A DNA stretch of 39,843 bases from a virus. Below the pieces are notes generated by a model. The model ran no database searches, was not told the origin of the DNA, and saw only the letters and a program-made list of their open reading frames with translations. Location of the stretch: IMG/VR virus record IMGVR_UViG_3300023276_000002, positions 1-39,843 of that record; one strand, written 5' to 3'. Of the stretch, positions 2,760 to 8,625 are shown piece after piece. Within the stretch, counting starts at the first letter, position 1; each line of letters starts with the position of its first letter. A program made the position numbers and the translations under genes.

Positions 2760-3113
2760 ATGGCAGAAATTACTAAAACTTTAGTTGCTGGCTCTGTTCC
2801 TGTTGTAGTTAGCGTAACCACTTTGGGTGCATCTGACACGATAGACTTCAAAGCTGGCGTGAGTGCAACGCTTATTCTCAATAATGTAACGGCTGGCGCT
2901 CTAACTCCTACAATTACAGGTGCCGATTCGGTAACGTATCCAGCTACCGCACTAGGCAATATCGATACATCTGGCGGATTTGTGTTCCCTGCTGTTGTTG
3001 GCGTAGGTGAAGTGCAATCAATTAAGCTTGATAATATCAGCGGTTGGCTACAGGGGGTTATCACTGTAACTGGTGCAGACGGCATTGAAGCTCAATTAAT
3101 TGAGTATGCATAG
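2760..3113 (+). CDS. Small beta-rich virion-like protein after the tail tube gene
   Basis: 117 residues, starting 10 bases after the tube gene with an AAGGGG ribosome site. The composition (many Val, Thr, Ala, Gly, almost no Cys or Trp) and alternating hydrophobic pattern indicate an all-beta fold, as in decoration or Ig-like modules. I do not recognise a named family. Its place between tube and chaperones suggests a tail-surface decoration or minor tube component; this is inference. Confidence 0.6.
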   Translation: MAEITKTLVAGSVPVVVSVTTLGASDTIDFKAGVSATLILNNVTAGALTPTITGADSVTYPATALGNIDTSGGFVFPAVVGVGEVQSIKLDNISGWLQGVITVTGADGIEAQLIEYA

Positions 3114-3150
3114 AGTTATCTGATACAATTATTTTTACATTGAAAGTTTT

Positions 3151-3212
3151 ACGGTAAAAGACGGCAGTCCGGCGACCCCATCCACCGCCACCGTAATTTT
3201 AAATTTTGGATG
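3151..3212 (+). other. GC-rich structured element, possible H-type pseudoknot
   Basis: This 118-base gap before the chaperone gene holds an island much richer in G+C than its surroundings. ACGGT (3151-3155) pairs with ACCGT (3190-3194), GGC (3163-3165) with GCC (3187-3189), and CATCCA in the loop (3179-3184) is complementary to TGGATG just downstream (3207-3212). Together these make an H-type pseudoknot. There is no T-run for termination. A role as leader or processing signal for the chaperone and tape measure message is inference; folding was done by eye. Confidence 0.4.
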
Positions 3213-3231
3213 ATAATACAAGGCATGAATT

Positions 3232-3654
3232 ATGGACTTAAATAAACTAGCAGTATCACAAAAATCTTACACTTTAGAGCTAAAGGCACCATTGTCAATT
3301 AAGGCTGAGGGCGTAATTGCAGGCGAGTCAATCAGCGATGGTAAAGGCGGCTTTTTATCAATTGATATTTTATCTAGTGATACAAATATCATGAAGAAAG
3401 CGCTGTCTGAAGCAATGCGCGATGCTCGTAAGGCGTTAAAAGGTTCTGACGAAATCACAGAGCGTGAATCATATTTAATTCAGTGTCGAGCTTTGGCAAA
3501 GGCAACAACTGGCTGTAACTTAATCTCGGACGGCAAGGCAGTTGTTCATTCAGAGGATTACATTTTTGAGCTGATCTCTCTTCCTGATTTTACATGGATT
3601 AAAGAGCAGTTAACTCGCGAAATGGATAACCGCGCAAATTTTATCAAAAGCTAA
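3232..3654 (+). CDS. Tail assembly chaperone, short form (lambda gpG-like)
   Basis: 140 residues. It sits directly before a second frame-shifted open frame and the tape measure, the invariant arrangement of tail chaperone genes. It looks like a small alpha/beta protein with a C-terminal helix (FTWIKEQLTREMDNRA). The protein would coat the tape measure and recruit tube subunits, and is absent from mature virions. Near its end (3636-3642) it contains the canonical slippery heptamer A AAT TTT in the right frame, so a fraction of ribosomes should continue into the -1 frame and make the long form. Confidence 0.8.
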   Translation: MDLNKLAVSQKSYTLELKAPLSIKAEGVIAGESISDGKGGFLSIDILSSDTNIMKKALSEAMRDARKALKGSDEITERESYLIQCRALAKATTGCNLISDGKAVVHSEDYIFELISLPDFTWIKEQLTREMDNRANFIKS

Positions 3655-4088
3655 GCGAAAGCCTTAGCTTATACGCAAAACAATTGGCGTGGCTTTGCTC
3701 TACGCCAAAAAAAAACGAAAAAGACAAAAGTCCAAAAACAAGAATTAGCGGACTAAGAAAGGGTAGTTCGGCGCTATCAATGCCTGACGCCCCTAAATTT
3801 TTGGTTGAATGTTTTGACTTGCTTGGTAGGTGCATGAGCGGAAGCATGGGCAGGGCGCCGCTCACATGGTCTGAAGTTAAGTCCTTTTCAGATCAATCTG
3901 GTTACATGTTAAGCGGCTGGGAATCAGAGCAACTAATAAATATGAGCAGGGAGTATTGCTATATGGCGCACGATGCCGATGAGATCGACTGCCCCGCACC
4001 ATATAGAAGTGACATTAAAGATGATAATGATGCATTACAAAGAATGCGGGAAAATGTAGATAAACAGTTAGATCAGTTCTTTCTATGA
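3232..4088 (+). CDS. Tail assembly chaperone, long form made by -1 frameshift (lambda gpGT-like)
   Basis: Join of 3232-3642 and 3642-4088, predicted 285 residues: 137 of the short form, then 148 from the -1 frame. The -1 frame is open from the slippery site through to the TGA at 4088 with no stop. Between the frameshift and the first possible start (TTG at 3684) it reads a sensible helix-rich segment, and the TTG itself lacks a Shine-Dalgarno sequence, which argues that this frame is reached by shifting and not by its own start. The T part would bind tube protein while the G part coats the tape measure. It is followed by a terminator and the tape measure gene. Confidence 0.75.
3636..3670 (+). 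promoter_or_regulatory. Programmed -1 ribosomal frameshift signal
   Basis: Slippery heptamer A AAT TTT at 3636-3642, in phase with the upstream gene. A 5-nt spacer (3643-3647) is followed by a perfect 8-bp hairpin, AAGCTAAG (3648-3655) and CTTAGCTT (3663-3670), with a 7-nt loop. All three parts have the spacing known for bacterial -1 frameshift cassettes. The hairpin includes the short form's own stop codon (3652-3654). Confidence 0.8.
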
Positions 4089-4120: not shown

Positions 4121-4144
4121 AGCCGCGTTAATTCGCGGCTGTTT
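4121..4144 (+). terminator. Intrinsic terminator between chaperones and tape measure
   Basis: AGCCGCG, TTAATT loop, CGCGGCT, then GTTTT. Same loop as at 59-79 and 26163-26184. The T-run is interrupted by one G, so termination may be partial and act to set the level of tape measure relative to tube protein. Confidence 0.65.
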
Positions 4145-4165: not shown

Positions 4166-7100
4166 ATGGCGGCTGATATAGCAAAGCTAGGTTTCTCGGT
4201 TGACACCAAAGGCTTGGAAAAAGGAGAGAAATCTCTAAATAAATTTAGCAAAACTGGCGAAAAAACCGAGAGAAAAGTCGGTAAGCTTGAAAGTAAATTT
4301 AAGTCTTTTGGTAAAAATGCAAGCGCCGCTGTATCCGCTGTCGATGGTCCATTGGGCGGTATATCTTCAAGAATATCTGCATTAACTACCGTCGCAACTG
4401 CTGGAGGGGCGGCAATGACCGCTCTTGCTGTTGGCGTTACCGCTGCAACTTTTGCGATCTCGAAGGGTGTAAAGGAGCTTGATGAACTACAAGTATCCTT
4501 AGCGAAAACAGAGGCGATAATTAAAGCAACCGGAGGTGCGGCAGGCAAGACAGGCGAACAATTAGCATCTCAGGCTCAAGATATAGCATTCTCGACACTA
4601 GCAAGCGTTGAAGGTATATCAAAGGCTCAAGGCGTATTACTTACGTTTAAAGCTATTAGCTTAGATGTGTTCGATGATGCAATTAGACTATCGCAAGATA
4701 TGGCATCTGTTATGGGAGGTGATGCATCAACACAGGCGCTACGGCTTGGTAAGGCGTTAAATGCGCCAGCAGCAGGAATGGGCGCACTCGCTATAGCGGG
4801 GTTTAAATTTACAGAGCAGCAAAAAGCAAGCGCCAAGGCATTTGAAGAAAACGGTCAAATTCTAAAAGCGCAATCGATCATATTAGATGAAGTAAAAGGT
4901 CAGCTAGAGGGCGTGGCAGAAAACATAGCAGGTAAAACGCTATCAGGCTCACTTGATACAATGGGACAGGCGTTCGATAACTTCACTGTGCGAATTGCTA
5001 CAAATATAGGCGCCCTAGAAACATTTAAAGGATTTATTGATAAGTTAAATGTCGGGATAGTTGGTAGGACAAAAGAGTTATCACCAGACTCAGCAGCTCA
5101 AGCGGCAGATAAGGCTATGCAATTGGTGTGGGAGATTGCTGATGCAGAAGAAAAAGCTGCAAATATGGTGGGCGGGATTAGAAAAGATGCTCATTTGGCT
5201 AGAGTTGAGAATCTAAAGAAAGAGCGACAGTCCTATCTTGATTATGCATCGGCAGTATCGCAATCAGAAAATAAAATATTAACAGCTCGAAGCGATGCAG
5301 TATTAGCATCTGTTAAGCTTGCGGAAGAAAACAGAAAAGCAGCATTAGCAGCCAAAGCGATTGAAGATGCAAAACCATTTGAGAAGTGGAAAAAATCAAT
5401 AGAAGAGTTTCAAACTCCACTGCAAAAATTACAAGCCGAACTGACAAAAATAAACGAAGGCTTATCAAGCGGGAAACTTGAGGCTGGCTCTGGTGTTTCT
5501 GCTTACCTATCAGATCTAAAAGAAAAAATAGATAAAATAAACGAGTCTAGCGGTGATAGCTCATATCTAGAGTGGGTTGATTCAATTGCAAGCGAAACAA
5601 CGATCAGAAAACTGCAAAGCCTTAGCGATGAAATAACAGAAGTATGGCTTGCAATGGACGCTGGAGATATAAGCGAATCTGTCGGGATGCAGGCAATAGA
5701 TACGCTAGAAGATAAAATTAAAGGGCTTAAAACAACTGTTGATAAGACTGATATTTTTGGCGGAATGACTGACTCAATAGGCGAGTCACTAAAAGCAATG
5801 CAGGGCTTTACGGACACTGGCTCAAAAGAATACGAAAAACTAGGTGTTGCTATTCAAGCTGTAAATGCTATTCAAGCGATCGGTGCTGTTATTAACCAAG
5901 GGCAAGGCGATCCTTACTCTGCATTTGGTCGGATGGCCGCAATGGCCGCGTCTATGGCGGCGCTTGGGCAATCAATCGGTGGTCTTAGTAGCGGCTTTCA
6001 AGATCAATCAGCTGCAAATCAAGGCGCTCAAGGTCTTAACGTTTGGGGTGAAAAATCAGAATCAATTGCAAATAGCATAGATATAACAGCAGATGCAACC
6101 GACAGGCTAGTTGGTATAAATACTGGAATGCTAAAAGCTTTGCAGGCAATGCAGGCAGGCATAAGCGGTGCTTCTGGAATTGCGGCGCGTGGGGCGAGCG
6201 GTGCAGGATTTGGATATAGTCCTGATGTTACAAGCAATTTAGCAGGAAGCATGTTAGGCAAGACAACAGACTTCTTCGCTAACTATCTAGGCGATCAAAA
6301 CGAGTTTTTATCAAATGCATTTAATTTAATGTCTGGTGGGTTCTTAACCGACAAGATCGGGCGAATGCTTGGCGGCTCGTCTAGCGTGGTCGATTCTGGC
6401 ATTGAAATTCTTGGCGGTACTTTGTCAGATATTATAGATGGGGCGTCTGTATTTGCGTTTAGACAAACAGAGTCTAAAAAATATCGATGGTCAAGCACGA
6501 AAACACATAGAGAGCTGCAATTACTAGACGATGCAAGCACGCAGTTTACGCTTGTTTTCTCGTCACTTGCTGACGCTGTGTTTACTGGTGCAACCTCTTT
6601 GGGTATGGCTGGCTCGGATGTTGAAGAGGCGATAAATAATTTTCAAATAGCAACCACTAAAATATCACTAAAAGGATTAAGCCTAGAAAATCAGCAGAAA
6701 GAAATTGAAGCCGTATTTAGTCAGATGTTTGACAATCTTTCTGGTGCAGTTGTTCCGTTCCTTGCTGACTTCCAAAGAACAGGCGAAGGACTAGGCGAGA
6801 CACTTTCTAGACTATCGGTTGAAGTTGCAACGGCTGATTTTGCAGTTAAGAATCTAGGGATCAACCTTGGCGACAAGCTTGCCGATCCGCAAATGTACAC
6901 GCAAATCGCAGACAACCTAGCAATGATTACTGGAGGAATTGAAAGCTTCGCTAGCAAAACAGCTTCATTTATTGATACTTTTGCACCTGATTCAGTTAAG
7001 TTTGAAATGTACAGCGGCGCGCTTACTGAGCAACTTGCGGCTGTTGGACTTGCCGTTCCTGCCTCAGCAGATGCGTTTTTTGCTCTAATGCAATCATTAG

Positions 7101-7717
7101 ATGGCACAACTGAGGCTGGAAGAGGGCAAATCGCGGCCCTGCTAAACTCTCAAGAAGTAGCGAGCGGATATTATGACCAACTAGAAGAGCTGAACGGCTC
7201 GTTATCAAGCCTCGCAAAGTCTCTGCGGGGCACAATCGAGAGTATTTACGGCATTAGCTATACAACCTCGCAAATTACGCTAGAGGCCGCATTAAGCTCT
7301 GCTAAATTGGGGGATTTCAGTAAAGCACTAGAGCTTAATTTATCAAATGTAGCACCGTCTATTACTGATTTTAGCTCAATGGCTGATTACAAGTTTGCAC
7401 AGGCTGCGACTGCAAATAAACTTGAAGAGTTGGCGAGCCTTGCAGATGGAACGGCAACGGTTCAAGATATGACGCTCACAGCAAATCAAGAGCAAGTTGC
7501 ATTGCTAACAAGTATCAATCAAAACACTGCGAGCGCTTATGTGCCACAACAGACACAATCGCAAAACAATGATACAATGGTTTTAGAGTTGAAAGCGATA
7601 CGCGAGGAGTTAGAGTTGATTAAACATGCAGATACAGCAACAGCCAAATCAACAGCTAAATCAGCAAATCATTTGCAGAACATTGATTATGATGGCGTAG
7701 AGGTAATTAACGCGTGA
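4166..7717 (+). CDS. Tail tape measure protein
   Basis: 1183 residues, the longest gene. It has the expected features: a conserved start (IAKLGFSVDTKGLEKG, as in lambda gpH-like tape measures), long helical coiled-coil stretches rich in Ala, Lys, Glu and Gln, a hydrophobic segment near residues 85-110 (TVATAGGAAMTALAVG), and a glycine/alanine-rich central region. At the usual 0.15 nm per residue it would set a tail of about 175 nm. AAGGTG lies upstream of the ATG. The 3' end overlaps the next start as GTGA. No lytic domain (no lysozyme or peptidase motif) is visible by eye. Confidence 0.9.
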   Translation: MAADIAKLGFSVDTKGLEKGEKSLNKFSKTGEKTERKVGKLESKFKSFGKNASAAVSAVDGPLGGISSRISALTTVATAGGAAMTALAVGVTAATFAISKGVKELDELQVSLAKTEAIIKATGGAAGKTGEQLASQAQDIAFSTLASVEGISKAQGVLLTFKAISLDVFDDAIRLSQDMASVMGGDASTQALRLGKALNAPAAGMGALAIAGFKFTEQQKASAKAFEENGQILKAQSIILDEVKGQLEGVAENIAGKTLSGSLDTMGQAFDNFTVRIATNIGALETFKGFIDKLNVGIVGRTKELSPDSAAQAADKAMQLVWEIADAEEKAANMVGGIRKDAHLARVENLKKERQSYLDYASAVSQSENKILTARSDAVLASVKLAEENRKAALAAKAIEDAKPFEKWKKSIEEFQTPLQKLQAELTKINEGLSSGKLEAGSGVSAYLSDLKEKIDKINESSGDSSYLEWVDSIASETTIRKLQSLSDEITEVWLAMDAGDISESVGMQAIDTLEDKIKGLKTTVDKTDIFGGMTDSIGESLKAMQGFTDTGSKEYEKLGVAIQAVNAIQAIGAVINQGQGDPYSAFGRMAAMAASMAALGQSIGGLSSGFQDQSAANQGAQGLNVWGEKSESIANSIDITADATDRLVGINTGMLKALQAMQAGISGASGIAARGASGAGFGYSPDVTSNLAGSMLGKTTDFFANYLGDQNEFLSNAFNLMSGGFLTDKIGRMLGGSSSVVDSGIEILGGTLSDIIDGASVFAFRQTESKKYRWSSTKTHRELQLLDDASTQFTLVFSSLADAVFTGATSLGMAGSDVEEAINNFQIATTKISLKGLSLENQQKEIEAVFSQMFDNLSGAVVPFLADFQRTGEGLGETLSRLSVEVATADFAVKNLGINLGDKLADPQMYTQIADNLAMITGGIESFASKTASFIDTFAPDSVKFEMYSGALTEQLAAVGLAVPASADAFFALMQSLDGTTEAGRGQIAALLNSQEVASGYYDQLEELNGSLSSLAKSLRGTIESIYGISYTTSQITLEAALSSAKLGDFSKALELNLSNVAPSITDFSSMADYKFAQAATANKLEELASLADGTATVQDMTLTANQEQVALLTSINQNTASAYVPQQTQSQNNDTMVLELKAIREELELIKHADTATAKSTAKSANHLQNIDYDGVEVINA

Positions 7718-8625
7718 TAGTAATAAAACCGATAACCGCAACTACAGGTGTTTTATCTTCATCAACAATCCCCGAGCCTGACACGGCTCGAGGAGAAATT
7801 GAGTGGGTTGCTGGTACTTACAATGAAGGTGATGAGGTAATAAAATCATCTACGCATAGAAGATACAGAGCGGCGACAACCACTACTGACGATCCAGAAG
7901 TCGGTATATTAAAGTCTGTTCCAACATGGGTTATAGTCGGATCATCAAACAGGTATAAAATGTTTGATAGTGAATTCAGCGAAAGTTCGATTGCAACATC
8001 TCCGTTAGTTGTTGAAGTTGAGCCAAACGGTCTTCTTAATGCTGTTGCAGGGTTTGGCGTATTTGGCGCTGAAAATATAACCGTAACAGTAACAGACCCG
8101 ATTGATGGCGTTGTATATAATCACGATATAGCTATGCAAGATTACTCAAGCGTAACAGATTGGTACAACTACTTTTTTACACCTCTATCACTAATTAGTG
8201 AATTTGTGCTATTGGACTTGCCACCGTATGGCAACGCAACTGTTAAAGTTACAATGACAGGCGGTGGCGATATAACAATCGCAACACTTTTAGGTGGCCC
8301 ACAAATTAATATAGGCGTTGCAAATTACGGAACAAGCGTTCAATTAATAGATTACTCTAGAAGAGAGCCTGACGGATTCGGCGGATTTAAAATAGTTAAG
8401 CGAAGAACATCAAAGCTTGTTAACTTCGATGCGACAGTGCAAACGAACAATGTAAACTATGTATTCAAGCAGTTGCAAGATCTTTCTCAGGTTGCTGCTG
8501 TGTGGGTTGGATCTGAAGAGGTTGATGATCCGACGCTTGTTTACGGATATTACAAAGACTACACCAATAATATATCATCACCAACAATTACAGATGCAAC
8601 AATAACAGTCGAGGGTTTATCATAA
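7714..8625 (+). CDS. Tail tip / distal tail protein with N-terminal carbohydrate-binding-like module
   Basis: 303 residues from a GTG at 7714 that overlaps the tape measure stop. Residues about 26-75 read like a CBM5/12-type chitin-binding-like module (EWVAGTYNEGDEVIKSSTHRRYRA, split by Trp and aromatic residues, and a PTWVIVG ending); such small modules occur in tail-tip proteins of many phages. The rest is beta-rich. Being the first gene after the tape measure it should be the distal tail or hub-equivalent component. The last base is shared with the next ATG. Exact role is inferred from position. Confidence 0.6.
   Translation: MIVIKPITATTGVLSSSTIPEPDTARGEIEWVAGTYNEGDEVIKSSTHRRYRAATTTTDDPEVGILKSVPTWVIVGSSNRYKMFDSEFSESSIATSPLVVEVEPNGLLNAVAGFGVFGAENITVTVTDPIDGVVYNHDIAMQDYSSVTDWYNYFFTPLSLISEFVLLDLPPYGNATVKVTMTGGGDITIATLLGGPQINIGVANYGTSVQLIDYSRREPDGFGGFKIVKRRTSKLVNFDATVQTNNVNYVFKQLQDLSQVAAVWVGSEEVDDPTLVYGYYKDYTNNISSPTITDATITVEGLS

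Follow-up and report, generated by a model that had tools for sequence, protein, structure and literature searches.

The window analysed here, a DNA stretch of 39,843 nucleotides from a marine siphovirus-like phage (IMG/VR record IMGVR_UViG_3300023276_000002), carries two overlapping open reading frames between the gene for a major tail protein (plus strand, 2297-2749; phrog_158, E 1.2e-8) and that for a tail length tape measure protein (plus strand, 4166-7717; phrog_24709, E 1e-186). The question raised by this locus is whether the pair represents two independent genes or a single tail assembly chaperone gene read partly through a -1 ribosomal frameshift. The first frame, open at 3232-3654 on the plus strand, encodes a putative gpG-like tail assembly chaperone of 140 aa and ends in GCA AAT TTT ATC AAA AGC TAA. 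Within this 3' end lies the slippery heptamer A_AAT_TTT (3636-3642), of the form X_XXY_YYZ and correctly phased for a -1 shift. A spacer of 5 nt (3643-3647) separates it from a perfect 8-bp hairpin (H1), the arms of which lie at 3648-3655 and 3663-3670. The UAA stop codon of the short form (3652-3654) falls within the 5' arm. From 3630 onward the -1 frame contains no stop until 4088; the extension (3636-4088, plus strand), a candidate gpT-like domain, adds 148 residues after the slip to 137 residues read in the zero frame, for a shift product of 285 aa. The initial annotation had described each of these elements, from heptamer, phase, spacer and stem to the stop codon within the hairpin and the lengths of open frame and fusion, and the sequence bore out all of them. 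Its further remark, that an arriving ribosome would both melt the stem and uncover the stop, is a mechanistic guess. No Shine-Dalgarno-like stimulator was found upstream of the heptamer.

Very probably, the 140-aa chaperone and the 285-aa fusion are both made, the latter through a -1 ribosomal slip at AAATTTT. Most ribosomes would read ...Ala-Asn-Phe-Ile-Lys-Ser-stop and release the short chaperone. A smaller share would be held by the stem beginning 6 nt downstream while tRNA-Asn occupies AAU and tRNA-Phe occupies UUU; ribosomes so held would move one base back to AAA UUU, continue as ...Ala-Asn-Phe-Tyr-Gln-Lys..., and produce the fusion. If lambda gpG/gpGT is a guide, the N-terminal domain common to both products would bind the tape measure protein, and the C-terminal domain, the rarer of the two, would recruit the tail tube protein. 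We infer the slippage itself, its rate, and the functions of the proteins, whereas the anatomy of the site, its phase, the conservation of the frame, and the conserved downstream structures are observed.

Chance is a poor explanation for the coincidence of heptamer and stem. In-phase X_XXY_YYZ heptamers occur at 0.0059 per codon, and thus with a chance of about 4% across the 7 codons of the overlap. Distinct perfect 8-bp stems with loops of 3-10 nt number six in 39.8 kb, so that the chance of one falling 4-8 nt after the site is about 0.1%; the joint chance is of the order of 1e-5 to 1e-4. As a control, the whole window was searched, and 57 in-phase heptamers were found among its 11,224 plus-strand codons. 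Two of the 57 had a -1 frame open for at least 100 codons past the stop: the AAATTTT described here and a GGGTTTA near 8613. The latter (8611-8625) is in phase, with a -1 frame open for 492 codons, and was rejected as a second frameshift site because the next gene has an ordinary ATG of its own at 8625, which explains the overlap. It is a useful false-positive control: since an ordinary overlap gives the identical pattern, an open -1 frame by itself was rejected as evidence.

The identity of the products as chaperones is supported by the protein families of relatives and by position between the major tail protein and tape measure genes. Short forms of relatives matched phrog_313 ('Tail assembly chaperone') in 6 of 10 cases, with a best E value of 3e-11, and their extensions matched PF23812 (Phage_TAC_18) in 10 of 13, with a best of 1.2e-8. 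The window's own short form had no match in Pfam; its extension matched phrog_18915, a family of unknown function, at 1e-20, and PF23812 at 0.0029, below the curated cut-off. The short form as modelled by AlphaFold (pLDDT 75) resembled no solved structure in the PDB and gave weak-to-moderate matches to predicted phage proteins, some of them named tail assembly or tape-measure chaperones. The earlier proposal of a tail chaperone pair joined by a -1 frameshift therefore gains support from the families of relatives, from position, and from the invariant -1 relation described below. Two further features of this neighbourhood were observed. An ORF of 117 aa at 2760-3113, between the major tail protein and chaperone genes, has a weak match to the tail-protein family phrog_584 (E 0.044), and ORFs of like size and place occur in CGphi29 and L045. 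A terminator-like hairpin, AGCCGCG-TTAATT-CGCGGCT, lies at 4121-4140, past the end of the chaperone extension and ahead of the tape measure gene.

The extension protein matched 110 phage records, among them Vibrio phages, Salicola phage CGphi29, and Acinetobacter phage Effie; a scan of a genome collection for prophage relatives returned none. A readable junction was available at 89 loci, drawn from phage records and viral contigs and comprising 61 distinct junctions. The second frame was -1 relative to the short ORF at all 89 loci, with no +1 or gapped arrangement. Taken alone, a -1 relation can look like a single gene broken by sequencing error or mutation, but the same break in 89 loci, including independent genomes and isolated phages, refutes that account, and we regard its probability as negligible. 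The named phage records consulted annotate the two halves as separate, mostly hypothetical, proteins, and the paper describing phage ValSw3-3 does not mention frameshifting (PMC7199398).

Such annotations, which list two CDS with the second often starting shortly past the first stop, would suit an extension that is a gene in its own right, begun at its own start (a TTG codon in the annotations) through reinitiation or coupling once the short ORF has ended. Some ATG, GTG, or TTG does precede a conserved Trp of the extension in 22 of 59 distinct junctions (L019 and L021, with unclear slip sites, were left out of the motif counts), yet an ATG does so in only 1 of the 59. Homology begins at the slippery Phe codon, with tblastn alignments mostly starting from residue 1-2, and the conserved residues include F2 as well as the Trp, W19. 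The first possible -1-frame start in the window, a TTG at 3684, would lose 16 residues and has no Shine-Dalgarno sequence before it. An own start for the second ORF was rejected because homology reaches upstream of any start and a Shine-Dalgarno sequence is lacking; the constant -1 frame and the retention of slippery codons also count against a separate gene, which we consider highly improbable.

A canonical in-phase heptamer was present in 44 of the 59 junctions, as TTTTTTG (30), AAATTTT (9), TTTTTTC (3), GGGAAAC (1), or AAAAAAG (1), although most TTTTTTG junctions are close kin and the 59 are thus not independent events. AAATTTT itself is identical in L006, L011, L023, L035, L036, L038, L040, and L045. 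The 15 junctions without a canonical heptamer carried GGCTTTT (7), AACTTTT (5), GAATTTT, GGCTTTA, or a sequence ending in CTTTTC. The P-site half of the heptamer is, judging from these junctions, dispensable in evolution. Runs of 6-7 T in L007, L009, L027, and the large TTTTTTG group might instead bring to mind slippage of the transcribing polymerase on the T-run, producing mRNAs with an extra base. The window's run is merely A3T4 and many relatives have just TTTT, and the conserved structures downstream fit ribosomal pausing better, such that transcriptional slippage is scarcely credible here.

H1 (3648-3670, plus strand), the putative stimulator, folds at -9.6 kcal/mol (z -3.4), a stability equalled by 2 of 200 dinucleotide shuffles; its loop is CGAAAGC, in which the fold places one more C-G pair around GAAA. 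The initial annotation had missed a further hairpin of equal strength, the 9-bp H2; its arms lie at 3684-3692 and 3700-3708 on the plus strand, 41 nt past the heptamer, and it folds at -12.2 kcal/mol. Sliding 34-nt folds were computed for 22 representative relatives, several of which are related and so do not constitute 22 independent tests; the mean z was about 0 upstream of the heptamer, lowest at +5 (-1.95), and -1.58 at +35. Against a null of synonymous codons, H1 gave p=0.036 in the window and a Fisher value of 4e-5 over the 22 relatives; the corresponding values for H2 were 0.0015 and 5e-8. With 14 less related sequences, the Fisher values under the same null were 1.5e-5 (H1) and 6e-8 (H2). 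H2 shows compensatory changes: four relatives, including L026, L006, and L045, have G-C in place of C-G, and L026 has A-U in place of G-C. Covariation was detected in alignments A5 and A6. H1 as a plus-strand terminator was rejected since it has no T-run, and a kissing pair between the loops of H1 and H2, noticed by eye (in the window, AAAGC against GCUUU), was rejected as inconsistent in relatives.

Whether close relatives had lost the heptamer or the stem was a point on which the initial annotation had staked its reading, and that reading held up under the comparison. Four of the nearest relatives (L035, L036, L038, and L040) keep the exact heptamer, while L026 and L034 retain only its TTTT/TTTA half. 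H1 is clear in the window, L034, L035, L038 (one position out of register), and L040, but weak or missing in L026, L027, L036, and L041. It is therefore not strictly conserved, and the relatives as a whole do not show covariation of H1 in strict register. Selection nonetheless acts on structure 5-8 nt past the heptamer, though that structure is weak in some relatives. The hairpins could be kept for mRNA stability, for control of the tape measure gene, or for coding, an alternative that concerns only the stimulator and not the slip. H2 invites it, being farther from the heptamer than a usual stimulator and strong in L026 and L027 despite a weak H1. H1, by contrast, lies at the usual distance, the strongest z-score falls exactly there, and H1 is most invariant in a group of Vibrio phages with the weakest slip motif. 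On balance, a role unrelated to frameshifting is unlikely, and a stimulatory role for H1 is the reading we retain.

The Vibrio phages in question (L008, L010, L012-L018, L022, L024, and L103) have no canonical heptamer and carry GGCTTTT or AACTTTT. In L015 and L024 the two frames overlap by only 16 nt (GCT TTT ACT ATC GCG TAG), and TTT would be the only codon in that overlap able to re-pair one base back. The group has a hairpin of 12 bp, starting 6 nt past the TTTT, in which 100% of the cells in the alignment pair and the upper part shows compensatory changes. Slippage in these phages apparently depends on a bare U_UUU together with this stronger hairpin. Measurements in E. coli place U_UU.U and U_UU.C among the tetramer motifs for which a strong stimulator is needed (PMC4066793); the coincidence of the most invariant H1 with the weakest slip motif is what would be expected if tetramers have this need. 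GGCTTTT and AACTTTT fit at least the name of the 'twoonefour' motif of PRFect (PMC10885494). That motif and 'twofour' derive from frameshifts annotated in SEA-PHAGES genomes, whereas the Vibrio phages considered here are annotated as having two hypothetical proteins.

A conserved -1 frameshift in the tail genes of long-tailed phages was reportedly described by Xu, Hendrix and Duda in 2004. As in lambda G/GT, two overlapping ORFs lie here between the major tail protein and the tape measure, and a -1 shift near the end of the first would give a short chaperone and a longer fusion. The lambda gpG/gpGT frameshift has conserved counterparts in long-tailed phages (PMC5009743), and the present arrangement is, we conclude, one of this known type. 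It departs from lambda in having a clear downstream hairpin and a second one beyond it, and in a comparison by protein family the phage proteins showed no match to lambda G or T. The heptamer A_AAU_UUU also differs, as had been pointed out, from the G_GGA_AAG of lambda, a difference that is unremarkable because A_AA.U_UU.U belongs to the H_HH.U_UU.Y motifs, a class that ranks with the most efficient ones measured in E. coli (PMC4066793). The phage heptamer thus falls in the shift-prone class measured among X_XXZ_ZZN and Z_ZZN motifs with downstream structures (Sharma et al. 2014, PMC4066793), in E. coli reporters with IS3/IS911 stimulators rather than in this phage or its host. Taken together, the frameshift cassette is real, conserved, and in all likelihood functional, though of a familiar kind.

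A separate element on the same mRNA is the more novel and surprising of the two. The leader of the chaperone gene (3149-3212, plus strand) is structured and pseudoknotted, with covariation in 10 leaders, those of the window and nine relatives. The shared fold comprises P1 (3149-3155/3190-3196), a small P2 (3160-3162/3167-3169), and P3 (3171-3174/3186-3189) with the loop CATCC, which pairs with a downstream GGATG directly before the ribosome binding site. In the window the pseudoknot joins 3179-3184 (CATCCA) to 3207-3212 (TGGATG), and is followed by a Shine-Dalgarno-like AAGG at 3220 and the chaperone ATG at 3232, all on the plus strand. In alignment A8, 77% of leader cells pair, while slid versions reach 49% at most; for the pseudoknot helix the figure is 92%. 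Double-change cells, located in P1, P3, and the pseudoknot, numbered 14 as compared with 5.5 in shuffles (0/500). A model of the leader scored 71.8 bits at 3143-3234 in the window, itself a training sequence, and found no other convincing match elsewhere in the window; a DNA pattern scan returned chance matches only. In relatives a TATAAT-like box, judged by eye, often lies just upstream of the leader; the TG-TACAAT match ending at 3129 in the window is no more than chance expects.

The leader resembles the Rfam family int-alpA (RF02996): the copies in G001 and G003 exceed its cut-off, and those in CGphi29, L027, and G002 match with lower scores. The likeness extends to the layout of P1, P2, and P3, to the sequences CUAG and CGAAAA in relatives, and to a possible loop-tail complementarity in the Rfam consensus (CCUU with AgGG). 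The leader differs in its location before a tail chaperone gene, in a 3' tail that pairs with the loop of P3 beside the ribosome binding site, and in that the window copy does not score: Rfam returned nothing at the gathering threshold in the window, and nothing at E<=5 in the stretch of the leader and junction. G001 has another copy above the cut-off, located before an HNH endonuclease gene, and NUMOD4/HNH genes follow the copies in Dulem virus 33 and Flyfo siphovirus. In other phages, int-alpA RNAs lie directly before HNH/NUMOD4 endonuclease genes at L106 (1501-1573), L126 (904-970), and L130 (901-970), where the complementarity of each loop to its own tail suggests a pseudoknot beside the ribosome binding site. 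Similarly arranged copies in L127, L128, L129, and L131 were retrieved through their resemblance to L106 and did not pass Rfam; the proteins downstream of them had no Pfam match. Across seven phage copies, the window, and L038, with loops and tails delimited by hand, P3 loops matched their own tails better than those of others (mean run 6.6 vs 4.0, permutation p 5e-5), and so the pseudoknot seems general to RNA of the int-alpA type. Tentatively, the chaperone mRNA may carry two conserved RNA devices, the frameshift signal with its two hairpins and the pseudoknotted leader of int-alpA type. The leader would be a mobile 5' element of free-standing homing endonuclease genes that was captured by this phage clade and governs initiation of its tail chaperone, with the pairing of P3 loop and tail as a switch close to the ribosome binding site.

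The frameshift confirms a known rule in a phage group in which it had gone unannotated, and it would set right how the genes are modelled in the roughly 110 public phage records holding the extension. The slip site, the two hairpins, and the leader can be traced through distant, mostly unannotated relatives. Slip motifs within the family form a natural series, weakening from a heptamer down to a bare U_UUU, along which the hairpin becomes stronger and more conserved. If our reading of the leader is true, the orphan int-alpA RNA would gain both a fuller structure and a role.
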